Shown here: positions 11,479-57,359 of the stretch, one piece after another
Position numbering within the stretch: the first letter of the stretch is position 1
How the letters are laid out: each line of letters opens with the position of its first letter
NCBI RefSeq assembly: GCF_030286555.1
Contig: NZ_JASVWF010000008.1
Location: 124,001 to 188,000 of the forward strand
Direction: 5' to 3'
Origin: Actinomycetospora termitidis
GTDB lineage: Bacteria > Actinomycetota > Actinomycetes > Mycobacteriales > Pseudonocardiaceae
DNA: 64,000 bases
Program-made: the position numbers and the translations under genes
The notes under the pieces: generated by a model
The model's input: only the letters and a program-made list of their open reading frames with translations
Told to the model about the DNA's origin: nothing
Database searches by the model: none

Positions 11479-12117
11479 ATGGACCCGCGAGCAGCGACGG
11501 CGGGCGTGGTCGACCTCCCGGCGGTCAGCACCCGGACCCGCAAACGCCATGAGCGCCGGGACCGCGTCTACGCGGCCGCCATCGCCCTGTTCGTGGAACG
11601 GGGCTTCGACGAGACGTCGATGGACGACATCGCGGCCCGTGCCGGTCTGGCCCGCACGACGGTGTTCAACCACTTCTCCCGCAAGGCGCTGTTCCTCGAG
11701 GAGTGGGCCCGCCGCCGTCGGGAACGGGCCGCCCGCGCCCTGGAGGACGCCGCGCCGTCGACCCGTCCGCTGCGCGAGGTCCTCGGGAGCTACTTCTCCG
11801 GCCTCGCGGCGGTCAACGCCGGGACGCGGATCGAGACGACGGCGTTGATGTCGCTCTCGCTCAAGGCCAACGACGTGTTCCGCGGCCACACCCTGGGCCA
11901 CGACCTTGCGGAACTGATCACCGCGAGCGGCGAGCCGCTGCGCCCGGGCACCGACGCCGCCCAGGTCGGGCGACTGCTGGCGCTGGGCTACTACTCCGCG
12001 GTCGTGCGCTGGATCGAGGTCGAGCCGGCCCCGTTCGACCTCGACCGGGAGCTCGCCGCGGTGCTGGACACCGTGCTCGTCGGTGCGCTCGCCGGACCGA
12101 GCCCGGTGCCGAGGTAG
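11479..12117 (+). CDS. TetR family transcriptional regulator
   Basis: This 212-aa regulator has the helix-turn-helix at about residues 22-68 (ALFVERGFDETSMDDIAARA then GLARTTVFNHFSRKALFL), typical of TetR. ATG 11479 is preceded immediately by an in-frame GTG at 11476 and either may be used. Divergent transcription from the FAH/MBL/MetE-like/SABATH operon, with repeats between, makes it the likely local repressor. Its 3' end lies 3 bp from the end of the convergent second TetR gene. Confidence 0.9.
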   Translation: MDPRAATAGVVDLPAVSTRTRKRHERRDRVYAAAIALFVERGFDETSMDDIAARAGLARTTVFNHFSRKALFLEEWARRRRERAARALEDAAPSTRPLREVLGSYFSGLAAVNAGTRIETTALMSLSLKANDVFRGHTLGHDLAELITASGEPLRPGTDAAQVGRLLALGYYSAVVRWIEVEPAPFDLDRELAAVLDTVLVGALAGPSPVPR

Positions 12118-42061: not shown

Positions 42062-42847
42062 TCAGGGGACGACGAGCTCGGTGTCGTGGCCGTCGGTGAT
42101 CGCCATGTGGCCGGGCGCGTGGCAGATCGCCAGGGGCGGACGGCTCGCCATCACCGCGGCCTGCGGGGTGACCCCGCAGGCCCAGAAGACCGGGAGCTCG
42201 CCGTCGGGAATCTCGACCGGGTCGCCGAAGTCGGGCCGGTCGAGGTCGTCGATGCCCAGGGCGGACGGGTCGCCGACGTGCACCGGGGCGCCGTGGACCG
42301 CGGGGTAGCGCGAGGTGACGCGCACCGCCGTCGCGACGAGGTCGGGAGCGACGGGGCGCATCGACACCACGAGGGGCCCGGCGAGGTCGCCCGCACTCCG
42401 GCAGGCGCGGTCCGTCCGGTACATCGGGACGTTGCGGCCCTGCTCGACGTGGCGGATCGGGACCCCGGCCGCGGCCAGGGCGTCCTCGAACGTGAACGAG
42501 CAGCCGATCAGGAAGGCGACCAGGTCGTCGCGCCAGTGCTCGCGGACGTCGTCGACCTCGTCGGCGTACTTCCCGTCCACGTAGACGCGATAGGCGGGCA
42601 GGTCGGTGCGCAGGTCGCCGTCGAAGACCGTCGTCGACGTCGCGCCGGGCTCGGAGACGTCGAGGACGGGACACGGCTTCGGGTTGCGCTGCGCGAACAG
42701 CAGCACCTCGTAGGCGTAGTCGCGCGGGACGGCGATCAGGTTCGCCTGGGTCCTGCCCGTGCACCATCCCGCGGTCGGCGTGCGGAGCCCGTCGCGGAAC
42801 AGGGCGCGGGCCTCGTGCGGGCTGTAGGCCCCAGGGCTGCCGTCCAT
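42062..42847 (-). CDS. D-glutamate cyclase / DUF1445 family protein (putative hydro-lyase)
   Basis: This 261-aa protein has the DUF1445 signature: [15 protein letters not shown], a [10 protein letters not shown] segment, NVPMYRT, and [18 protein letters not shown] at the C-terminus. Mammalian relatives (DGLUCY) cyclise D-glutamate to 5-oxoproline; bacterial ones are labelled putative hydro-lyases. ATG 42847 is the natural start. It converges with the hypothetical pair and follows, after a hairpin, the LuxR-SBP fusion gene. Confidence 0.8.
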
Positions 42848-42996: not shown

Positions 42997-44715
42997 TCAG
43001 GTGAGCGGCGGCAGGACGAGGGCACCGTCGGCGTAGGTCGCGGGGCCGACCACCCGCTGGTGGCCGTCCTGGATCTGGTGCACGAGGTGCGCCTGGGCCA
43101 GCGACGGGTCGCCCGCGCCCTCTCCGGACCACGTGCGTGCCGTCTGCCCCGGGGCGTCGAAGCTGTACGCCCCGTTGACCCCGCGGTAGACCGAGGCGCG
43201 GAGGTGGTCGGCGACCGCGGAGAAGTCGCGGAAGTCCGCGGCGGCCCAGGCCCCGGCGACCAGGCGCACGCGGTCGTAGGCGATCCCGGCGTGCGAGCGT
43301 CCGGGGACGACGCCGAAGCGCCGCGCGTAGCGGGCCGCGAACGAGCGGCCGAGACGGTCCGGGTAGGTGCCGGTGGTCGTGGCCCAGAGGATGCCGTCCG
43401 CGCGGTCGCCGAGGCGGAGCCGGAACTCCGGCACCGACGGGGCGTAGATCCCGTAGAGCAGTCCCGCTCCCCCGGCGTCGCGGAATCCCTCGACGAACGC
43501 CACGTGGTCGTCGACGAGATAGCTGCCGATCATGACGGCGGCCGGGTCGTCCCCCGCGGCGCGGGCGCCGGCCTCCCGCCACCCGCCCGCCCTCGGGGCC
43601 TCGACGGTCAGCGCCCACCCGCGCCGTTCCGCGTGGTCGGCGGCCGCCGAGAGACCGAGGTCGACGAGGTCCCACGCGGGCTGGCGGACGGCCAGGAGGC
43701 GACGGGACCCCGGACGCCAGGTGCCGCGGTCGCGCAGGCCACTGACGACGTCCACGAAGTGCGGCCCGTAGTGGACGTCGCTCGGGCAGACCTGGAACAC
43801 GCGCGAGAACCGTCCGGGGTCCTCCGCGGCGCGCTGCTCCATCAGCCCGGAGGTCGCCGCGTGCAGGTACGGCACGCCGGCGGCGGCCGCCAGGTCGTGC
43901 GCGAGGTCCTGGCGGGCGAGGTAGCCGGAGGTGAGGACGTCGACGTCCGCGGCGAGCAACCCCTCGAAGCCGGCCGCGACGGTGGTCGCGTCCTGCGGAT
44001 CCACGTCGGCAACGCGCAGCTCGAGCCGCCGGCCGGCCACCCCGCCGGCCGCGTTCAGCTCCTCGATCGCGAGTCGTGCGCCCTGCTCCATCTCGCGGGC
44101 GTCCGCGGCCGCCACCCCGGTGAGCGGGAGGAGCGCCCCCACCCGCAGCGGCCGGCGATGCACGGGACGGGGGCTCGCTCCGCGGCGGGCCGGCGTCCGG
44201 TCCGCGGCGGCCATCGCCCGGCCGAGTCGGAGCTGCTCGAAGCCGACCGGGCCGCCGGGTGGCGGCACCACGACCAGGCCCTCGTCGAGCGCCCGGGCCG
44301 CCGCGGCTCCGCGCGAGGCGACGTCGAGCTTGCTCAGCACCCGGTCCACGTGGGTCGCGACCGTGCGGGCCCCGATCGCCAGCCGGGTCGCGACGGCCGC
44401 ATTGGTCAATCCGGCGACCAGCAGGGTCAGCACCTCGAGCTCGCGGCGGCTCAGCCCGTGCGGGAGGGCCTCGAGCGGTTCGACGGCAACCACGGCCGTC
44501 GCGTCCTCCACCTGCACCAGCACCGCGAGCGGCACCGGCCCGAGCCGGACCACCCGCAGCTCGCCGACGTCCGCCGCCACCGCCCCGGCCGCGAGTCGAC
44601 GCAGGTCGGAGGGCACGTCGTCGGCACGGCCGTCCTCGACGACCCGGACCTCCGCGGCGGCGTCGACCCGCACCGCGGCCCGCCCCGGCGTCCCCTGCGA
44701 CGTCCTCAGGTCCAT
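42997..44715 (-). CDS. LuxR-type helix-turn-helix fused to periplasmic-binding ligand domain
   Basis: The 572-aa protein has a LuxR/GerE helix-turn-helix at about residues 86-145 (LSRRELEVLTLLVAGLTNAA, then VATRLAIGARTVATHVDRVL). From about 188 to 565 it has a type-I periplasmic-binding domain of the leucine/amide-binding class (RVGALLPLTGVAAADAREME, GVAGRRLELRVADVDPQD). There is no signal peptide, so the ligand domain acts in the cytosol, as AmiC does in amide sensing. The gene is divergent from a RutA-type monooxygenase/acylase pair, which it probably controls. ATG 44715 has GGGAG upstream. Confidence 0.85.
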   Translation of the reverse strand: MDLRTSQGTPGRAAVRVDAAAEVRVVEDGRADDVPSDLRRLAAGAVAADVGELRVVRLGPVPLAVLVQVEDATAVVAVEPLEALPHGLSRRELEVLTLLVAGLTNAAVATRLAIGARTVATHVDRVLSKLDVASRGAAAARALDEGLVVVPPPGGPVGFEQLRLGRAMAAADRTPARRGASPRPVHRRPLRVGALLPLTGVAAADAREMEQGARLAIEELNAAGGVAGRRLELRVADVDPQDATTVAAGFEGLLAADVDVLTSGYLARQDLAHDLAAAAGVPYLHAATSGLMEQRAAEDPGRFSRVFQVCPSDVHYGPHFVDVVSGLRDRGTWRPGSRRLLAVRQPAWDLVDLGLSAAADHAERRGWALTVEAPRAGGWREAGARAAGDDPAAVMIGSYLVDDHVAFVEGFRDAGGAGLLYGIYAPSVPEFRLRLGDRADGILWATTTGTYPDRLGRSFAARYARRFGVVPGRSHAGIAYDRVRLVAGAWAAADFRDFSAVADHLRASVYRGVNGAYSFDAPGQTARTWSGEGAGDPSLAQAHLVHQIQDGHQRVVGPATYADGALVLPPLT

Positions 44716-44742
44716 GGCCGCCCGTCTCCCACGCGCCGTCGT

Positions 44743-44819
44743 CGGGACCCTAACCCCGCGAGGCCCCGACGGGACCCCTCGTGACGTGATGGCTCCACGC
44801 CGGAAACACGGGGTCCGTC
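44743..44819. promoter_or_regulatory. Repeat-containing divergent promoter region
   Basis: The 180-bp gap between the LuxR-SBP gene and the monooxygenase gene contains CGGGACCC twice in direct orientation (44743-44750 and 44769-44776). An inverted GGGGTCCGTC lies at 44810-44819, complementary to the second copy except for one bulged base. These repeats are candidates for the LuxR-type site. No conventional promoter hexamers were identified with confidence. Confidence 0.4.
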
Positions 44820-44895
44820 GTTCTACCGATCCGCCGCGGCCGACGTCGTCCTAGCGTCCCGGCATTCCCCGATCCCCGAATCCGTGGAGGGCCCC

Positions 44896-45948
44896 GTGCG
44901 TCTCGGAATCTTCGCCCCGACCCTGTCCGGCGGCTGGGTCATCTCGACCGAGGCGCCCTGGTGGAAGCCCGACTGGTTCCTCATGCAGGAGACCGCGTTG
45001 AAGGCCGAGCACTACGGCTTCGACTTCCTCCTCGCCCCGAACAAGTACAAGGGCATGGACGGCGAGATCCACTTCTGGAACTACGCCCTGGACTCCTTCA
45101 CGACGATGGCTGCGCTCGCGGCGGTGACGCGCAAGGTCATGCTGATCCCGTCGATCTCCCTGCTCTCGGTGCCACCGGTCTACGCCGCCAAGCAGTGCAA
45201 GACGATCGCCGACATCGCGGGCCCCGGCCGGTTCGGCGTCAACATCATCTCGGGGTGGGAGAAGCCGGAGTGGGAGTCGATGGGCCTGTGGCCCGGCGAC
45301 GAGTACTTCGGCTACCGCTACGACTACGCGGCGGAGTACATGACCGTCATGCGCGAGCTCTGGGAGACCGGACAGACCGACTTCGACGGGCAGTTCTTCC
45401 ACATGAAGGATGCGCGCCTGGAGCCCTGGTTCGACGACGGGAACATGCCGAAGGTCGTCTGCGCGGGGCAGTCGGACCGCGGCATGCAGTTCACCGCCGA
45501 GCACGCCGACTACCAGTTCATGGGTGGCAAGCTCGACATCGGCGAGCTGACCGAGCAGATGGGTCGGGTCAACGCCGCGTCACAGAAGGCCGGCCGGCCG
45601 ATGGAGGCGTTCCCGCTCTACCAGTGCGTGGTGCGCGACAGCCTCGCCGAATGCGACGACGTCATCGGCCGGTGGCGCGAGAGCCAGGAGCTGGAGGTCG
45701 TCAAGACGATGACCGGGCACGCGTCGATGAACTCCGAGGCCGACGAGAACTCGCTGCACGCGACCCTGCTCGGCAACGACAACTTCATGCTCTGGGAGAT
45801 CATCAAGGGCGACCCGAAGAGCGTCGCCGAGCAGCTGCGCGCGATCTCCGACGTCGACGGCGTCAGCGGCGTGATGTTCACCTTCCAGGACTACCTGACC
45901 GACATCGACCGCTTCGGTGCTCAGGTCATGCCGTTGCTGGCGGACTGA
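44896..45948 (+). CDS. RutA-type flavin-dependent monooxygenase
   Basis: The 350-aa protein aligns with RutA (pyrimidine oxygenase) across most of its length: RLGIFAPTLSGGWVISTEAP, AEHYGFDFLLAP, GRFGVNIISGWEKPE, GLWPGDEYFGYRYDYAAEY and VCAGQSDRGMQF. RutA and relatives (DszA) use flavin-N5-oxide or peroxide to cleave C-N or C-S bonds. The Asn and Trp of the RutA catalytic region (VNIISGW) are kept. GTG 44896 has GGAGGG 5 nt upstream. It is coupled through TGATG to the penicillin-acylase-type gene, so an amide-like substrate is plausible. A flavin reductase is not adjacent. Confidence 0.88.
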   Translation: MRLGIFAPTLSGGWVISTEAPWWKPDWFLMQETALKAEHYGFDFLLAPNKYKGMDGEIHFWNYALDSFTTMAALAAVTRKVMLIPSISLLSVPPVYAAKQCKTIADIAGPGRFGVNIISGWEKPEWESMGLWPGDEYFGYRYDYAAEYMTVMRELWETGQTDFDGQFFHMKDARLEPWFDDGNMPKVVCAGQSDRGMQFTAEHADYQFMGGKLDIGELTEQMGRVNAASQKAGRPMEAFPLYQCVVRDSLAECDDVIGRWRESQELEVVKTMTGHASMNSEADENSLHATLLGNDNFMLWEIIKGDPKSVAEQLRAISDVDGVSGVMFTFQDYLTDIDRFGAQVMPLLAD

Positions 45949-48382: not shown

Positions 48383-49342
48383 ATGACGGCGCTGAACCCC
48401 CTCGAGTTCCGGATCGCCCCGGGCGACCTGGTGGCCGAGCTCAAGTCGCGGACGCCCAAGATTGGGATGAACGAGGGCCTCTGGCCCGGGCTGACGATGT
48501 ACCGCTACGACGCGCCGGCCGTCCCGCTGTGGGAGGAGGTTCGCGAACTGCACCTGTGCGTGATCGCGCAGGGCCGCAAGTGCGTCACCGCGAACGGCGT
48601 CAAGTGTTTCTACGACCCGCTCACCTACTTCGCGATCAACGACAACGCGCCGTTCCGGACGGAGATCGTCGAGGCCAGCCCCGCGAAGCCGTTCCTCTCG
48701 TTCGGTCTCCAGCTCGACCACGAACTCGTGCGTCAGGTGTCGTCGGACATCCTGCTCGAACGCGAGACCGCGGCGTTCACGAGCACGCGGGCACCCAGGT
48801 CGGAGAACCACTCCTTCGTCTCCGCGCTGGACCGCGAGATGATGGACGCGATCCTGCGGTTCCTACGCGCGCTCTCGAACGGCGCGGACCGTCGCGTCCT
48901 GGCTCCCGTGTACCTCAAGGAGATCGTGTACCGGGCGCTGCAGGCCGAGCAGTACAGCCGTCTGATCGAACGGGCGGCGAGCGAGAGCGAGAGCAACCCG
49001 GTCAGCGCGATCATCGCCTACGTCCACGAGAACCTGGCCGAACCGCTGAGCGTCAGCGATCTCGCCGAGCGGGCCTTCATGAGCCCGTCCGCGTTCTCGC
49101 ACCTGTTCCGCGACGTGGCCGGGCGGTCGCCGTACCAGTTCATCAAGGAGATGCGGCTGACGAAGGCGCGGGAACTGCTGATCGAGAACGAGGCCAGCAT
49201 CACGCAGATCTCGAAGTCCGTCGGCTACCGCAGCACGTCGCACTTCATCAACGAGTTCCGCGACCGGTACGGGATGACCCCGCGCGCGTGCAGCGACGCG
49301 CTGGCCGGCCGCGACCAGGGGCCCCAGGCGGAGCAGGCCTGA
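48383..49342 (+). CDS. AraC family transcriptional regulator
   Basis: The 319-aa protein has an N-terminal cupin-like sensor of the PF06719 type (VIAQGRKCVTANGVKCFYDP, TYFAINDNAPF) and the two C-terminal helix-turn-helix motifs (PLSVSDLAERAFMSPSAFSH and ASITQISKSVGYRSTSHFIN). GGGAGGT lies 3 nt before ATG 48383. It is convergent with the diiron monooxygenase/aldehyde dehydrogenase operon. Alcohol and hydrocarbon oxidation operons often have AraC activators nearby, so it is a candidate activator of that operon or of the acylase pair. Confidence 0.88.
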   Translation: MTALNPLEFRIAPGDLVAELKSRTPKIGMNEGLWPGLTMYRYDAPAVPLWEEVRELHLCVIAQGRKCVTANGVKCFYDPLTYFAINDNAPFRTEIVEASPAKPFLSFGLQLDHELVRQVSSDILLERETAAFTSTRAPRSENHSFVSALDREMMDAILRFLRALSNGADRRVLAPVYLKEIVYRALQAEQYSRLIERAASESESNPVSAIIAYVHENLAEPLSVSDLAERAFMSPSAFSHLFRDVAGRSPYQFIKEMRLTKARELLIENEASITQISKSVGYRSTSHFINEFRDRYGMTPRACSDALAGRDQGPQAEQA

Positions 49343-49378: not shown

Positions 49379-50824
49379 TCACCAGGCGACGGCGAGGTAG
49401 CTGACCTCGAGGTATTCGTGGATGCCCTCGAAGCCGCCCTCGCGGCCGAGCCCGGACTGCTTCATGCCGCCGAACGGGGCGGCCGGGTCGGAGATCGCGC
49501 CCCGGTTCACACCGACCATCCCCGCCTGCAGCCGCTCGCCCACCGACAGGGCGCGTCCCAGGTCGCGGGAGTACACGTACGCAGCGAGCCCGAACTCGGT
49601 GTCGGTCGCGAGCGCGACCGCGTCGTCGTCGCTCTCGACCTCGATGATCGGGGCGATCGGCCCGAAGGTCTCCTCGACCGACAGGACGCTCTCCCGGCCG
49701 ACGCCGCTCAGCACGGTGGCCGGGTAGAAGAAGCCGGGACGCTCGAGGGGTTCCCCGCCGGTGTGGACCTTCGCGCCGGCGCCGACCGCGCCGTCGACGC
49801 GGGCCGCGAGGTCGCGCTGCCGCTTCGCGTTGACCATCGGGCCCAGCTCGGTCGCCTCGTCGGTGCCCGGCCCCACCCGGAGCGCGGCCATCCGCCCGGT
49901 CAGTCGCTCGGCGAAGTCGTCGACCACGGCCGAGTGCACGAGGAACCGGTTCGCCGAGGTGCAGGCCTGGCCGCCGTTGCGCATCTTGGCGTACATCGCG
50001 CCCTCGACGGCGTCGTCGAGGTCCGCGTCCTCGAGCACCAGGAACGGCGCGTTCCCGCCCAGTTCGAGCGAGGTGTTGACGACGCGGTCGGCGGTCTGGC
50101 GGAGCAGCGACCGGCCGACCGGGGTGGAACCGGTGAACGACACCTTCCGCACCCGGGCGTCCGCCAGGGCCCACTCGACGAGCTCCGCCGGACGGTCCGT
50201 CGTCAGGACGTGCACGACGCCGTCGGGCACGCCGGCCCGCGACAGGAGATCGCCGAGGTAGACCGCGGTCAGCGGAGTGTCCTCGGCCGGCTTGAGCAGG
50301 GCCGTGCAGCCCGCCGCGAGCGCCGGGGCGAGCTTGCGCGTGGCCATCGCCGCGGGAAAGTTCCACGGCGTCAGCAGCAGGGCGACCCCGACGGGCCGGT
50401 GGACGGTGGCGATGCGATTCGCCCCGCCGGGCGCGGTGCGCAACTCGCCCCCGATGCGCACCGCCTCCTCGGCGAACCACCGGAAGAACTCCGCGGCGTA
50501 GCGGACCTCCGCCCGGGCGTCCGCTCGCGTCTTGCCCATCTCCAGACTCATCAGCAGCGCCAGCGGTTCGAGCTCGGCGAGCATCAGCGCGTGGGCGGCG
50601 TGCAGGATCTCGGAGCGCCGCCGCGGGGCGGTCGCCGACCATGCCGGGAGGGCGTCGGCGGCCGCATCGACCGCCGCGTCGACCTCGGCGGCCCCGACCC
50701 GGGCGACCTCCGCGATCGGCTCGCCGGTCGACGGGTCGAGGACGCTGAAGGTGTCGTGCGACGTGGGCGGGGCGAGGCGGGCCAGGAGGCCGTGGACGTG
50801 AGTGAGCGTGGGGTCGACGCTCAC
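49379..50824 (-). CDS. NAD(P)-dependent aldehyde dehydrogenase (succinate-semialdehyde-type)
   Basis: The 481-aa enzyme has the oxyanion Asn156 in PWNFP, KPAEDTPLTA, SFTGSTPVGRSL, general base Glu254 in LELGGNAP and nucleophile Cys288 in GGQACTSANR. Its pattern fits the succinate-semialdehyde dehydrogenase group but the substrate may be another aldehyde. GTG 50824 overlaps the NTF2-like gene by GTGA. It is the last gene of the monooxygenase-linked transcript, so it may oxidise the aldehyde produced after hydroxylation. Confidence 0.88.
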   Translation of the reverse strand: MSVDPTLTHVHGLLARLAPPTSHDTFSVLDPSTGEPIAEVARVGAAEVDAAVDAAADALPAWSATAPRRRSEILHAAHALMLAELEPLALLMSLEMGKTRADARAEVRYAAEFFRWFAEEAVRIGGELRTAPGGANRIATVHRPVGVALLLTPWNFPAAMATRKLAPALAAGCTALLKPAEDTPLTAVYLGDLLSRAGVPDGVVHVLTTDRPAELVEWALADARVRKVSFTGSTPVGRSLLRQTADRVVNTSLELGGNAPFLVLEDADLDDAVEGAMYAKMRNGGQACTSANRFLVHSAVVDDFAERLTGRMAALRVGPGTDEATELGPMVNAKRQRDLAARVDGAVGAGAKVHTGGEPLERPGFFYPATVLSGVGRESVLSVEETFGPIAPIIEVESDDDAVALATDTEFGLAAYVYSRDLGRALSVGERLQAGMVGVNRGAISDPAAPFGGMKQSGLGREGGFEGIHEYLEVSYLAVAW

Positions 50825-53721: not shown

Positions 53722-54747
53722 TCACCCCGCCGCCGCGGCCGCGTCGGCCGTGGAGAAGATGCCGGCGTGGAGCTTCTCCCGCGCCGCGCGGGCCTCGGCC
53801 ACGACCTCGCCGGCCGGCTTGCCGAGCAGCGGGGCGAGACCCTCCGCCGCGGCGTCGGCGAGCGGCGACCAGCGGTCGATCCACTTGTGCAGCGGCTTCT
53901 CGTTCTCCGCGCGCTGCTGCACGCAGAACCGGGCCAACCCGCCACACCAGCGGTCGCGCCGCTTCGCGTCCTTGCCGAGGACGTTGCCGAGATGCCACTC
54001 CAGCTCGTCGCCCGCGGCCTTGCTCACCTGGCCGAGCTGCCGGAGCAGCACGTCGTCGAGCGTCGGCGCCAGCACCAGGTTGAGCGCGGTGAACGCCTCG
54101 CCGAAGTCGTAGGCGACGAGCATCCGCTCGACGGCCTCGCGCGCCGGCTGCCAGGCCGCGTCGGACTCCCAGCGCTTCCGCTCCTCGGTCCCGATCCCGG
54201 AGTCCGGGTGGGCCATCTGCAGCTCGCGGGTGCGGTAGCCGACGATCGTGACGCGGCGCAGCAGGTCCGCGTTGGCGTAGCCGGCCGCGCTCGTGATGTA
54301 CGAGCTGTGGCCGAGGTAGCCGATGTAGGCCTGCACCTGCTGGAAGCCGTGCACCAGGTAGCGCGACGGCGTGAACAGCGCCCCGAGCCGCGCGACCTGC
54401 TCCGCGGGGAACTCCGCGTCGGCCCCGGCCTCGTTGTAGCTGTCCAGCAGCCCGTCGAGCTTGGTCTGCTCCTCGGCCTGCATGTTCACGTAGGAGCGGT
54501 AGGCGACCTTGTCCGGGTCGTGCCAGCCGTCCCAGTCGTCGACCTGCAGCGGGGAGTTCTCCCGGTAGGTCAGGAACCACAGGTTGATCGGCGACGACGG
54601 GTTCTGCTCGAACGTCGACATCCGCCCGTCGCGGGTGTTCCAGTTCTGCGCGTGCGTGACGATCTCGTACTCGCTCGGCATCTTGCGGACGTCGCCGAAC
54701 GCCGAGAACGTGCGCTGCTTGCGTGGCTTGCGGGCCGGGGTGCTCAT
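53722..54747 (-). CDS. Diiron monooxygenase beta subunit (TmoE-like)
   Basis: The 341-aa protein matches the TmoE/TbuA2-type beta subunit: QRTFSAFGDVRKMPSEYEIV, NPSSPINLWFLTYRENSPLQ, QVQAYIGYLGHSSYIT and ANADLLRRVTIVGYRTREL. It is the helical hydroxylase subunit without the metal site. ATGA joins it to the coupling protein upstream. It is highly conserved with toluene monooxygenases, supporting a full hydroxylase. Confidence 0.93.
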   Translation of the reverse strand: MSTPARKPRKQRTFSAFGDVRKMPSEYEIVTHAQNWNTRDGRMSTFEQNPSSPINLWFLTYRENSPLQVDDWDGWHDPDKVAYRSYVNMQAEEQTKLDGLLDSYNEAGADAEFPAEQVARLGALFTPSRYLVHGFQQVQAYIGYLGHSSYITSAAGYANADLLRRVTIVGYRTRELQMAHPDSGIGTEERKRWESDAAWQPAREAVERMLVAYDFGEAFTALNLVLAPTLDDVLLRQLGQVSKAAGDELEWHLGNVLGKDAKRRDRWCGGLARFCVQQRAENEKPLHKWIDRWSPLADAAAEGLAPLLGKPAGEVVAEARAAREKLHAGIFSTADAAAAAG

Positions 54748-55031
54748 GCGCTCGCTCCCTTGCGCTGCCAGGTGATCTTGTCGCTGGCGGTGATGGCCCG
54801 GCCGGTGAAGGAGGACATCAGGTTCTCCAGCGAGCGGATCCGGTAGTCCGAGCCGAGGTAGGACTGCAGCGTCGCCTCGGTGAGCACCAGTCGGTCCTCG
54901 CCCTGGATGCGCACGTAGGAGCCGCGGTCGATGATCTCGATCTCGGTGTTCGGGTTGTCGTCCTCGATCGCCGCGATGATCTGGTCGGTCTCGTCGCCGA
55001 GCGACAGGATCGGGCCCACGGGGTTCTTCAT
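54744..55031 (-). CDS. Monooxygenase coupling/effector protein (TmoD/MmoB-like)
   Basis: The 95-aa protein has the MmoB/DmpM-family pattern NPVGPILSLGDETDQIIAAI and LVLTEATLQSYLGSDYRI. Coupling proteins bind the hydroxylase and tune regiospecificity and rate. ATGA links it to the gamma subunit upstream and to the beta subunit downstream. Confidence 0.9.
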   Translation of the reverse strand: MKNPVGPILSLGDETDQIIAAIEDDNPNTEIEIIDRGSYVRIQGEDRLVLTEATLQSYLGSDYRIRSLENLMSSFTGRAITASDKITWQRKGASA

Positions 55032-55315
55032 GCCGGCACCTCCAGGTCGTACTCGACGGCGACGTGGTCCAGCGGGGCGAACCCCGCCTCGGCGACCGTC
55101 ATCTCGCCCGGGAGCTTCCGCCCCCGGTGGACGACGACCTTGCGGAACGGCTGCGCCCGGACGCGCTTGCCCTCGACGTGGTCGGCGACCGCGGCCGCGA
55201 CCTCGTCCATCGTGTTCGCCGTGGTGACCGGCACGAGGATCTCCACGAAGTCGGTGGAGAAGATCGCGTTGAGCGGCACCAGCTGCGGCGGCGCGTCCAT
55301 CACCTCGGCGCTCAT
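55028..55315 (-). CDS. Diiron monooxygenase gamma subunit (TmoB-like)
   Basis: The 95-aa protein resembles TmoB: LVPLNAIFSTDFVEILVPV, TMDEVAAAVADHV and RKLPGEMTVAEAGFAPLDHV. It is the small ubiquitin-like hydroxylase subunit. ATGA links it to the alpha subunit (stop 55312) and to the coupling protein. Its match to the family is moderate but its position after the alpha subunit is canonical. Confidence 0.85.
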   Translation of the reverse strand: MSAEVMDAPPQLVPLNAIFSTDFVEILVPVTTANTMDEVAAAVADHVEGKRVRAQPFRKVVVHRGRKLPGEMTVAEAGFAPLDHVAVEYDLEVPA

Positions 55316-56838
55316 GCCTGCGCTCCCGCGGGGACGGCGAGCCCGGTGGCCGGGCGGCCCACGTAGTCCTTGGTCCAGGCCTCGTAGTCCGCGTCGTCCC
55401 CCATGACGTCCGGCGTCATGCTCATGTAGTTGAGCAGCCCGCCCACGTCCATCGGCTGGATCTGGCCCGCGAGGAAGCGGTCGACCAGCGTCTCGTGGTT
55501 GACGTTGTCGCGGTCCTTCCACCAGATCTGGCGGCAGCCGTTCGAGCAGAAGTGGTAGGTCTTGCCGTCGTAGCTCAGCGGCTTGTTGCGCACGCGCCAG
55601 CTGCCGTCCCGCGACTGCGTCGGGTTGCAGCACGGCAGGTGGCAGAGGCTGCACAGGTAGGGCAGCGTCGCGGGGAGCGTGGCCTCGACGTTGTTCGCGT
55701 TGACGTTGTCGATGATCACGTCCCACTTGTCGCCGTAGGTCTGCTCCCAGTTCGGGTACTTCTCCCGCAGCCAGTCGCGCTCGTCCTTGCTGACGCCGGC
55801 CTTCGGGCGCCACCAGATGGTCGGGCGCCAGAACCAGAGACCCATGTGAAGGCTGTGGTGCCAGGTGTCCAGGCCGCGCATGAACTCGTCCCAGAACCAC
55901 GGCTTCTTCAGGCCGTAGTCCTCGATCGTGCGCACGAACTGGTCGACGATCCACTCCTCCATGAACTCCCGGTAGGACTGCTTCCGGTGCTCGAGGGGCG
56001 TGTAGTAGTCCATCGCCGGGCCGGTCAGGGCGGAGAAGGCACGAGCCGATCCCCAGAACGCCTTGTCGATGACCCACTGCGCGCGCGTCGGGTCGTGCTC
56101 GGCGAGGATCTGCAGCGTCGCGACGCCCTGCTGGGAGTGCCGGGCCTCGTCGGTCTGGATCGACGAGATCATGTTGGCGAAGTTGATGTCACCGGACTGC
56201 AGGGCGTCCGCGGACAGCGCGACGAACTGCAGGTTGGTGAACCCGGTCTCGAACGCCAGCGGCACCTGCAGCGCGCAGTCGACCACGTTCGACGTCGTCA
56301 TGATCCCGTCGAACAGGGTGCGCAGGGAGATCGGCACCCAGTCGTTCGTGGTGTAGGTCTTCTGCGTCCAGTCGTACTGCGGGTCCTTCACGACGAGCTC
56401 GTGGCCGAAGTACGTGGTGAGCGCGTTGTGCCGCAGTTCGTCGAGCTGACCGAACGTGGCCATGTTGCGCCATGCGCCGTTCAGGCCGAACCGCGCCATC
56501 TTCAGCTCGGCGAGCGTGGCCGTGTACTCGACCTGGGCGACGCCGCCGAAGTGCATCTTCGTGGCGGACTTCCAGCCCTCGTCGAGGTGGTCGAAGGTGT
56601 CCGAGCGCGACAGGGCGGCCTTGACCGCGTACGTCGACGCCTCCTTCTCCTTCTGCGTGTAGACGTACTCCTGGTAGGAGACCTTGTAGTCCTCCTCCCA
56701 GGCCAGCCACGCCTCGCGGGGCACCTTGCCGGTGCCGGAGAACCATTCCGGGTAGACCGCTTCGTCGTCGACGTAGGTGAGCGTCCAGTCGACGTCGCGG
56801 ACGAAGTCCTGCCATTCCTCGCGCTTGAGGAGCGCCAT
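55312..56838 (-). CDS. Soluble diiron monooxygenase alpha subunit (TmoA-like)
   Basis: The 508-aa protein is the catalytic hydroxylase subunit. Its diiron ligands align at toluene-4-monooxygenase numbering without gaps: Glu104, Glu134, His137 (DELRH), Glu197 (ETGFTN), Glu231 and His234 (DEARH). The gating Thr201 is kept. Pocket residues are Val100, Val103, Ala107, Thr141, Phe176, Phe196, Phe205 and Gln228; three differ from T4MO (Ile100, Gly103, Gln141). The C-terminus has a Cys-rich YHS-like module (CSLCHLPCCN, YHFCSNGCRQIWW). O2-dependent hydroxylation or epoxidation is expected; the substrate is not determined. Confidence 0.95.
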   Translation of the reverse strand: MALLKREEWQDFVRDVDWTLTYVDDEAVYPEWFSGTGKVPREAWLAWEEDYKVSYQEYVYTQKEKEASTYAVKAALSRSDTFDHLDEGWKSATKMHFGGVAQVEYTATLAELKMARFGLNGAWRNMATFGQLDELRHNALTTYFGHELVVKDPQYDWTQKTYTTNDWVPISLRTLFDGIMTTSNVVDCALQVPLAFETGFTNLQFVALSADALQSGDINFANMISSIQTDEARHSQQGVATLQILAEHDPTRAQWVIDKAFWGSARAFSALTGPAMDYYTPLEHRKQSYREFMEEWIVDQFVRTIEDYGLKKPWFWDEFMRGLDTWHHSLHMGLWFWRPTIWWRPKAGVSKDERDWLREKYPNWEQTYGDKWDVIIDNVNANNVEATLPATLPYLCSLCHLPCCNPTQSRDGSWRVRNKPLSYDGKTYHFCSNGCRQIWWKDRDNVNHETLVDRFLAGQIQPMDVGGLLNYMSMTPDVMGDDADYEAWTKDYVGRPATGLAVPAGAQA

Positions 56839-56867
56839 GATCGTGGTGTCCTTCCGTGTGTTCGTCG

Positions 56868-57359
56868 CTAGTCGACTTCGAGGTGGCCGAGGTCGCGGCA
56901 GACCTGGGCGTTGTCCCAGTAGGCGCGAATGCTGTCGATCAGCCCGTCGGGGTTCACGTGCAGGAGGAACAGGTGCGGCGCGACGATGGAGCCGCCGGCG
57001 GGCCGGATGAACGCCCACGCGATCTGCTGCGTCCCGGTGATGTCGCAGGCGACGGCCACGTCGCCGTTGTCGTTTGCATCGACGTGGTGGACGACGTTGC
57101 CGAGGTTCGGGAACGAATTGATCAGCCCGCTCCAGATCACCTTCCCGACGGTGCGGACCTTGCCGTCACCGCGGAAGACGCGCTGCTTGGCCCACACCTC
57201 GAACGGGATGTAGGAGAAGTCCGCGTTGTCCGTGCAGAGGTCGGTCATCCCCTCCACGTCCTGGCGGCGGTACCGGTCGAAGAACTCGGTCGCGACCGCG
57301 GCCGCCTTCTCGGAACCGGTGGTCGGGGCGGTCGGTGGCGCTGCGGCCAGTTCGGTCAT
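56868..57359 (-). CDS. NTF2-fold (SnoaL-like) protein
   Basis: The 163-aa protein has the NTF2-fold pattern AVATEFFDRYRRQDVEGMTD and LFLLHVNPDGLIDSIRAYWD. It lies directly upstream of the monooxygenase alpha gene (29 bp) and 17 bp after another NTF2-like gene. NTF2-fold enzymes include epoxide hydrolases and isomerases, so hydrolysis of an epoxide made by the oxygenase is plausible but unproven. ATG 57359 is used; the ribosome site is weak. Confidence 0.75.
   Translation of the reverse strand: MTELAAAPPTAPTTGSEKAAAVATEFFDRYRRQDVEGMTDLCTDNADFSYIPFEVWAKQRVFRGDGKVRTVGKVIWSGLINSFPNLGNVVHHVDANDNGDVAVACDITGTQQIAWAFIRPAGGSIVAPHLFLLHVNPDGLIDSIRAYWDNAQVCRDLGHLEVD

Follow-up and report, generated by a model that had tools for sequence, protein, structure and literature searches.

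A LuxR-type helix-turn-helix joined to a transporter-type binding domain: a family of candidate one-component regulators linked to amidase genes

Regulators of the LacI/GalR and AraR types combine a helix-turn-helix (HTH) with a type I periplasmic-binding-protein sensor behind it and act as one-component systems on palindromic operators. SgrR carries an N-terminal DNA-binding domain, with an HTH family of its own, fused to a type II solute-binding domain (SBP_bac_5), and AmiR, which works with the amide receptor AmiC, is an ANTAR RNA-binding antiterminator. In LuxR/NarL-FixJ proteins, the HTH usually lies at the C-terminus, as stated in a census of actinobacterial LuxR architectures (PMC3466318). 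Here, we analyze a 64,000-nucleotide stretch of the Actinomycetospora termitidis genome (contig NZ_JASVWF010000008.1; henceforth termed the window) in which a gene at 42997-44715 encodes a LuxR-type HTH in the middle of a protein that ends in a transporter-type binding domain.

We consider it likely that this protein is a cytoplasmic one-component transcription regulator whose sensor domain switches an amide-degrading operon via a dyad in the intergenic region. This reading is carried by the domain architecture, its conservation in a single reading frame, the genomic linkage with operons for amidases and a palindrome that some family members have at operon starts.

Gene integrity and domain order

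The gene and the domains of its product are laid out as follows:

42997..44715, minus strand: LuxR-HTH / type I solute-binding fusion regulator, 572 aa, ATG start
44476..44685, minus strand: N-terminal PAS-like domain, aa 11-80, predicted fold bb-a-bbb in AlphaFold models, high confidence
44296..44454, minus strand: LuxR/GerE helix-turn-helix, aa 88-140, Pfam PF00196, 54.0 bits against a cut-off of 23.5
44152..44271, minus strand: linker, aa 149-188, with one predicted helix (163-172)
43006..44151, minus strand: type I periplasmic-binding-protein (HAAT) sensor domain, aa 189-570, from Pfam and fold

An earlier note, made from the letters of the window, had proposed a one-gene fusion of these two parts and named a frameshift joining two separate genes as one possible refutation. 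Third-position GC lies at 0.92-0.96 in all six 100-codon blocks of the gene (the last block being shorter), and this uniformity argues against any frame break inside the reading frame. The survey of other genomes suggested in the same note yielded, in a scan of named genomes, 70 loci from many actinomycetes (Actinomycetota), several Alphaproteobacteria and Pasteurellaceae; HTH and binding domain share one frame in 65 of them, which excludes a frameshift artefact. The five other loci are split (L075), have the domains in different frames (L079), are cut at a contig edge (L106) or have no HTH in frame (L117 and L124). Joining of two genes by a frameshift is therefore rejected, and the single-frame fusion gene of A. 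termitidis is confirmed by the Pfam matches, the open reading frame and the 65 loci. One Actinomycetospora copy (G235; L038 8028-9712 / L075 9785-11703) consists of two overlapping frames with a break near residue 287, the stop overlapping the restart. This is either a sequencing error or a real split; the copy was kept as is and excluded from the fusion counts.

The HTH scores well above the GerE cut-off and superimposes on the DNA-binding domain of LiaR with a VIA Z of 13.7 (rmsd 1.0 over 64 aa), and on this basis the regulator belongs to the LuxR/NarL superfamily. It departs from the usual C-terminal position, since the HTH occupies aa 88-140 of 572; the N-terminal placement given in the earlier note is hereby corrected to an internal one, with about 80 residues in front. 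No Pfam match up to E 0.1 was found for an autoinducer-binding domain (nor an NCBIfam model at its cut-off), a receiver domain (Response_reg), an ANTAR domain, in whose stead GerE is present, a LacI-type HTH, or either the SgrR HTH or SBP_bac_5. An internal HTH followed by a C-terminal HAAT sensor fits none of the subfamilies compared.

The sensor is assigned by score and by fold. Peripla_BP_6 (PF13458) matches at aa 189-525 with 81.6 bits against a cut-off of 31.7, covering profile positions 1-328 of 343, and the two-lobed fold extends the domain to about aa 570. In the AlphaFold model of the 572-aa protein, computed with 30 aligned family members as input, the mean pLDDT is 89.9. The best solved relative by sequence (E 8.9e-46) is 3h5l, a putative branched-chain amino-acid binding protein, which is also the top fold match (VIA Z 44.9 over 382 aa, 30% identity). 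SAR11_0655 bound to L-pyroglutamate (8wch) comes second (Z 38.8, 18% identity), and ranks 3-50, among them amino-acid, aromatic, amide and urea binding proteins, lie at Z 31.8-36.0.

AmiC (1qnl) is a fold-level match (Z 34.0, 17% identity), and the sensor is AmiC-like in fold without AmiC being singled out, because many fold relatives lie at a similar distance. The suggestion that the protein combines the roles of AmiC and AmiR thus stands for the sensor fold; the AmiR half fails because the output domain is GerE and not ANTAR. In its strict form, with an amide-receptor half restraining an antiterminator half that acts on leader RNA, this suggestion would draw on the AmiC match and the amidase neighbors. 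We give it almost no credence given the GerE effector half, the missing ANTAR match and the conserved sites described below, which are palindromic DNA upstream of gene starts.

The N-terminal domain could be the true sensor, as in VqmA, a PAS-LuxR quorum receptor, with the binding domain only dimerizing or recruiting a partner. VqmA indeed gives the best Foldseek rows for aa 1-186 (E 4.3e-5), and VIA aligns the same segment over 126-133 residues with a Z of about 12 and an rmsd of 6.5-7.2, the HTH supplying part of the score. The Foldseek match is, however, weak (TM 0.33-0.40, rmsd about 8). The N-terminal part also varies strongly among family members, whereas the binding domain keeps positions that are common to transporter-type binding proteins. 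Although VqmA-like sensing weighs against the reading proposed here, we regard it as unlikely.

Distribution, transporter-type paralogues and cellular location

The genome of A. termitidis contains one full-length match; 13 further places with E-values of 1e-5 or lower correspond to the HTH part. Within Actinomycetospora, 4 of 18 genomes carry the gene. Further tallies from whole genomes, covering the family, the phylum, genus g47 (taken to be Mycobacterium) and a class sample, scored three to four candidates per genome and are lower bounds. At least 15 of 297 family genomes match at 1e-20, comprising, by coordinates, 13 fusions (one split) and two cases of the binding domain only, and at least 7 of 396 phylum genomes match at the same threshold, with fusions in the A. 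termitidis genome and three others. Genus g47 holds at least nine places in 7 of 297 genomes with E below 1e-70, HTH included. At least 11 of 394 genomes in the class sample match at 1e-30, four besides the A. termitidis genome with the HTH included. A tree of 80 binding domains places the 66 fusions in a single clade (100/99), separate from the 14 binding-protein-only rows. This topology makes one fusion event for the whole family likely but not proven, because the root is a midpoint placed for drawing only and several long branches are flagged.

Some genomes contain two fusion-type regulators: in Kaistia they flank one operon (L084, 2787-4892 and 11999-14038), and Nocardioides carbamazepini has one each at L072 and L102. 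Others lie on plasmids. Paenarthrobacter sp. YJN-D plasmid pYJND-2, typed as conjugative, carries a fusion with nitrilase and polysaccharide-deacetylase genes (L055, 9836-13415) and the family palindrome at 11599. On Paracoccus pantotrophus plasmid pPAN2, a fragmentary relative annotated as hypothetical proteins (L057, 7459-8447) neighbors hydantoinase A/B, FAD oxidoreductase, PucR and gabD genes, and an intact relative sits in a similar gene set on an Agrobacterium plasmid (L054).

Several fusions adjoin a binding protein that lacks the HTH. In three f16 genomes, such a paralogue (34-35% identity to the window sensor), followed by ABC-transporter genes, stands divergent from the fusion; in six g47 genomes, a paralogue with 35-38% identity directly follows the fusion. 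An alignment of the 66 fusions with eight binding proteins, seven of them beside a fusion, shows 45 near-invariant positions in common, including F307, Q308, Y316, W444, T446, G449, Y480 and D481. These common positions are consistent with a shared ligand of fusions and transporter-type proteins; many may be structural.

These relationships raise the question of where the protein resides. A membrane-anchored or exported protein could signal from an outside sensor to the HTH in a CadC/ToxR-like manner, or could be a transporter binding protein with a vestigial HTH; the Agrobacterium and Paenarthrobacter plasmid members are in fact annotated as 'ABC transporter substrate-binding protein'. By inspection and hydropathy, the only means used, neither an export signal nor a membrane segment was seen in the 572-aa protein; membrane export of the binding domain was the other outcome that the earlier note would have taken as a refutation. 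In 66 of the 70 scanned loci, 19-residue Kyte-Doolittle values between HTH and sensor stay at or below 1.62 (0.61 in the window protein). The first 91 residues of the window protein reach 1.57, compared to 1.39-1.57 for the three f16 paralogues and 1.39-3.16 for eight controls. Hydropathy is thus weak evidence of location, because it fails to separate fusions from binding-protein-only paralogues with twin-arginine-type starts. Stronger than hydropathy is the argument from order: the HTH precedes the sensor, the N-terminus is modelled as a folded PAS-like domain, and the RR-type starts of the f16 paralogues, which by inspection look like twin-arginine signals, are not shared by the window protein. 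Taken together, these features make export quite unlikely and place the binding domain, as the earlier note had proposed, probably in the cytoplasm.

Linked operons and a candidate operator

On the other side of the intergenic region 44716-44895, two genes of the opposite strand are the likely targets, and a conserved block lies between them and the regulator:

44884..45948, plus strand: RutA-like flavin-dependent monooxygenase (start perhaps GTG 44896), likely target gene, Bac_luciferase 137.2 bits
45948..48209, plus strand: penicillin-acylase-family amidase, likely target gene, Penicil_amidase 619.8 bits
44805..44829, no strand: conserved intergenic footprint from the alignment of four Actinomycetospora intergenic regions
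44814-44829, no strand: putative operator dyad TCCGTCGTTCTACCGA, an imperfect variant of the family palindrome

The monooxygenase matches RutA structures at E 1e-78 and scores 303.2 bits against the RutA equivalog TIGR03612, below its cut-off of 498.3, and on these scores its product is RutA-like, not RutA. The divergent pair, which had already been recognized in the earlier note, accompanies the regulator at all four Actinomycetospora loci, i.e., in every one of the 4 genomes (of 18) that carry the gene. A LuxR-type HTH next to a penicillin-acylase-family enzyme could also suggest quorum quenching, with the regulator sensing N-acyl homoserine lactones (AHLs) and controlling an AHL acylase. 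The acylase is, however, nearest to D-succinylase (7eby, E 2e-164) and reaches the AHL acylase PvdQ at 3.5e-10 at best (45 bits against an NCBIfam cut-off of 950). Together with the lack of a Pfam autoinducer-binding domain and the replacement of the acylase by nitrilase-like or C45 enzymes elsewhere, this renders quorum quenching very improbable.

Across the family, a polysaccharide-deacetylase/PuuE-like hydrolase gene lies near 54 of the 65 intact fusions (in fetched flanks of up to 10 kb). Exactly one kind of amidase is present in 51 of these 54 loci, being C45 in 21, nitrilase-like in 19 and penicillin-acylase-like in 11. The remaining three comprise two without an amidase (L060 and L087, whose contigs end within a few kb) and one with two kinds (L128); L116 has two matches of its single kind. 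An ethanolamine ammonia-lyase gene is also present in 12 of the 54. With 8 Polysacc_deac_1 genes in the 6.56-Mb genome of A. termitidis, about 0.03 hydrolase genes would be expected per 21-kb locus; the linkage counts include related, hence non-independent loci. Along the tree, one kind of amidase gives way to another in actinobacterial and proteobacterial branches alike. Neighbor families were named by Pfam and NCBIfam scans of cluster representatives. Gene calls are poor in L037, L041, L043, L048-L050 and L056-L058, and the linkage counts come from six-frame searches with profiles from clusters of the same loci.

The PuuE-like gene is absent from 11 of the 65 loci: Actinomycetospora sp. TBRC 11914 (L059), Agrococcus (L090), three Streptosporangiaceae (L092-L094) and six Pasteurellaceae. 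In Actinomycetospora, the RutA-like oxygenase and D-succinylase-like acylase occupy the place of the hydrolase/amidase set. Regarding the enzymes themselves, NIT2 is the nearest solved relative for one of two nitrilase-like groups, and the other has no match at 1e-10. C45 enzymes are nearest to AAT/C45 acyltransferase, and the PuuE-like hydrolase finds the peptidoglycan deacetylase 3qbu first, with PuuE allantoinase among more distant relatives. In five of these Pasteurellaceae loci (L101, L108, L112, L119 and L127), the fusion adjoins a TorA-like S/N-oxide reductase gene and a gene that by eye is cytochrome-like, not amidases; TTGAT-N4-ATCAA dyads upstream in L119 and L127 are FNR-like.

Some members of the family have a 7-2-7 palindrome, TCSGTCANNTGACSGA, close to operon starts. 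In the alignment of the four Actinomycetospora genomes, the conserved block contains the dyad TCCGTCG-TT-CKACGGA, which is imperfect in the window; a pattern built from those four occurs once in each of the 4 gene-bearing genomes of the genus and in 0 of 14 others. Upstream of the 66 fusions, its half-site pattern is found 8 times at one mismatch or fewer, 6 of them outside the source genomes, compared to 0.06 in mononucleotide shuffles. TNNGTCANNTGACNNA, chosen from these half-site matches, has an exact copy in 9 of 67 upstream regions, compared to a mean of 0.375 and a maximum of 1 in 40 control sets. Over 80 whole loci, which include the near-duplicates L063/L064, L111/L163 and L092/L167, the core T..GTCA..TGAC..A occurs 36 times in 32 loci; 0.42 occurrences are expected from composition, and 23 other half-site orderings reach at most 4 each. 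The core is likewise present in 10 of 13 loci fetched after the pattern had been fixed, seven of the ten belonging to genus g47. Enumerating perfect 7-2-7 palindromes in the 80 loci without a chosen half-site returned TCCGTCA in 15 loci and TCGGTCA in 10, the next best reaching 4.

In the whole-locus scan, which followed an upstream-only test, the sites turned up in front of target genes. Twenty of the 27 sites mapped fall between genes; another six reach into a called gene end by 1-12 bases, and one is situated in a short called frame. Measured to a called gene start downstream, the distance is at most 250 bp for all but one of them (L107, 748 bp). The genes downstream mostly encode binding protein, nitrilase, PuuE-like, SDR and MFS proteins or the fusion. 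In genus g47, TCCGTCANNTGACGGA occurs in 13 of 294 genomes and a reversed control pattern in 3; five of the genomes with TCCGTCANNTGACGGA have a fusion with an adjoining site and one has a fusion with the site elsewhere.

Several results weigh against the proposed switch and its operator. The remaining seven g47 genomes have a TCCGTCANNTGACGGA site and no fusion match. In a held-out test restricted to the region just upstream of the fusion gene, a single one of 13 loci had the site with no more than one mismatch (control mean 0.61), and counting gapped palindromes in general upstream of fusions brought out no particular gap class. With 6-base arms, CCGTCA (15 loci) is level with GC-rich half-sites (16 and 15 loci). 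The exact palindrome was not found in the 33 loci of the window's own clade, and the window operator therefore rests on the four-genome footprint and the imperfect dyad. Finally, the neighbors at 42062-42847, 48383-49342 and 49379-50824 did not appear next to the gene in any of the other three Actinomycetospora loci.

The family palindrome at two mismatches was tried and rejected as a candidate in the window's clade: 12 of 33 loci carry it, compared to 5-11 for five scrambled half-sites, which is no signal. At one mismatch, the comparison is 1 to 0. Palindrome enumeration in 28 loci of this clade yields 7-base arms shared by at most 3 loci. GCCAG-NN-CTGGC occurs in 10 of the 80 loci.

Two further gene groups of the window were recorded. 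The gene at 42062-42847, downstream of the regulator on the same strand, resembles D-glutamate-cyclase/PRK05463 hydro-lyase genes. Soluble di-iron monooxygenase genes lie at 53722-57018, with two Phenol_Hydrox subunits assigned by Pfam and further small and reductase-like genes recognized nearby by eye.

Proposed mechanism and comparison with known systems

We propose that the C-terminal domain descends from an ABC-transporter solute-binding protein, has lost its export signal and would now sense an imported small molecule. The internal HTH, probably as a dimer, would bind the dyad in the intergenic region. Closure of the two-lobed sensor around its ligand may change the spacing or the oligomeric state of the HTHs and thereby reposition the pair on the dyad, in whichever direction this controls transcription. 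The switch would act on the divergent monooxygenase/acylase operon and probably also on the regulator's own gene. Its signal would most likely be the amide-type nutrient degraded by the operon, or an intermediate, and the family as a whole probably comprises sensors for an amide-type nutrient.

A more specific proposal, which is our leading guess for the ligand but is put forward with low confidence, is that the family senses a cyclic imide (e.g., an N-substituted succinimide or glutarimide) or the corresponding half-amide and governs a modular pathway. The PuuE-like hydrolase, or in Actinomycetospora oxidatively the RutA-like flavoenzyme, would open the ring to the half-amide, which a D-succinylase-like acylase, an omega-amidase/NIT2-like nitrilase or a C45 enzyme would split into a dicarboxylate and an amine, the latter being an amino alcohol in loci with ethanolamine ammonia-lyase. 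Bonds of this sort are targets of omega-amidase, AAT and RutA. The hints behind this proposal are the enzyme relatives (D-succinylase, NIT2 for one group, AAT/C45, RutA and PuuE) and the pyroglutamate-bound sensor neighbor 8wch.

The analysis describes a widespread one-component architecture with a LuxR HTH in mid-protein and a transporter-type sensor at the C-terminus, together with a candidate operator and linked operons. It suggests that a binding protein was recruited as an intracellular sensor, in some loci adjoining a transporter-type paralogue, and the regulator is the common thread of operons whose amidases are of three unrelated kinds. Knowledge of a single ligand would indicate what many unannotated catabolic operons degrade and could provide a new inducible switch for actinomycetes. 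Such regulators probably form a little-noticed family and are easily missed, two of them being entered in public plasmid records as 'ABC transporter substrate-binding protein'. In the literature searched, outside of which most subscription journals lie, we recognized no description of a LuxR-HTH/HAAT-binding-domain regulator or of its operon, and the word 'periplasmic' was not found in the main text of the census of actinobacterial LuxR architectures (PMC3466318).

Among described systems, MSMEI_1050 of Mycobacterium smegmatis, the LuxR-type regulator of the isoniazid-induced amidase PzaA, is likewise encoded in an amidase cluster and, according to PMC10199920, is required for a hydrazide response; the likeness extends as far as this description. 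VqmA shares the order of a PAS domain followed by a LuxR HTH, but there the HTH is C-terminal, whereas it is internal in the fusion, and VqmA lacks a binding-protein domain. AmiC/AmiR of Pseudomonas aeruginosa shares the sensor fold and the control of amidase genes, suggested here by gene linkage; it consists of two proteins instead of one, and the sensor of the fusion is nearest to 3h5l and not to AmiC. LacI-type regulators and SgrR are closer working analogues than AmiC/AmiR. SgrR likewise joins a DNA-binding domain to a solute-binding-protein domain, the latter being type II and the former from another HTH family. LacI/GalR and AraR-type regulators share with the fusion protein the order of HTH and type I sensor and differ in their LacI or GntR HTH, in place of which the present family combines a LuxR/GerE HTH with a Peripla_BP_6/HAAT sensor of the amino-acid, amide and urea type and an extra PAS-like front domain.

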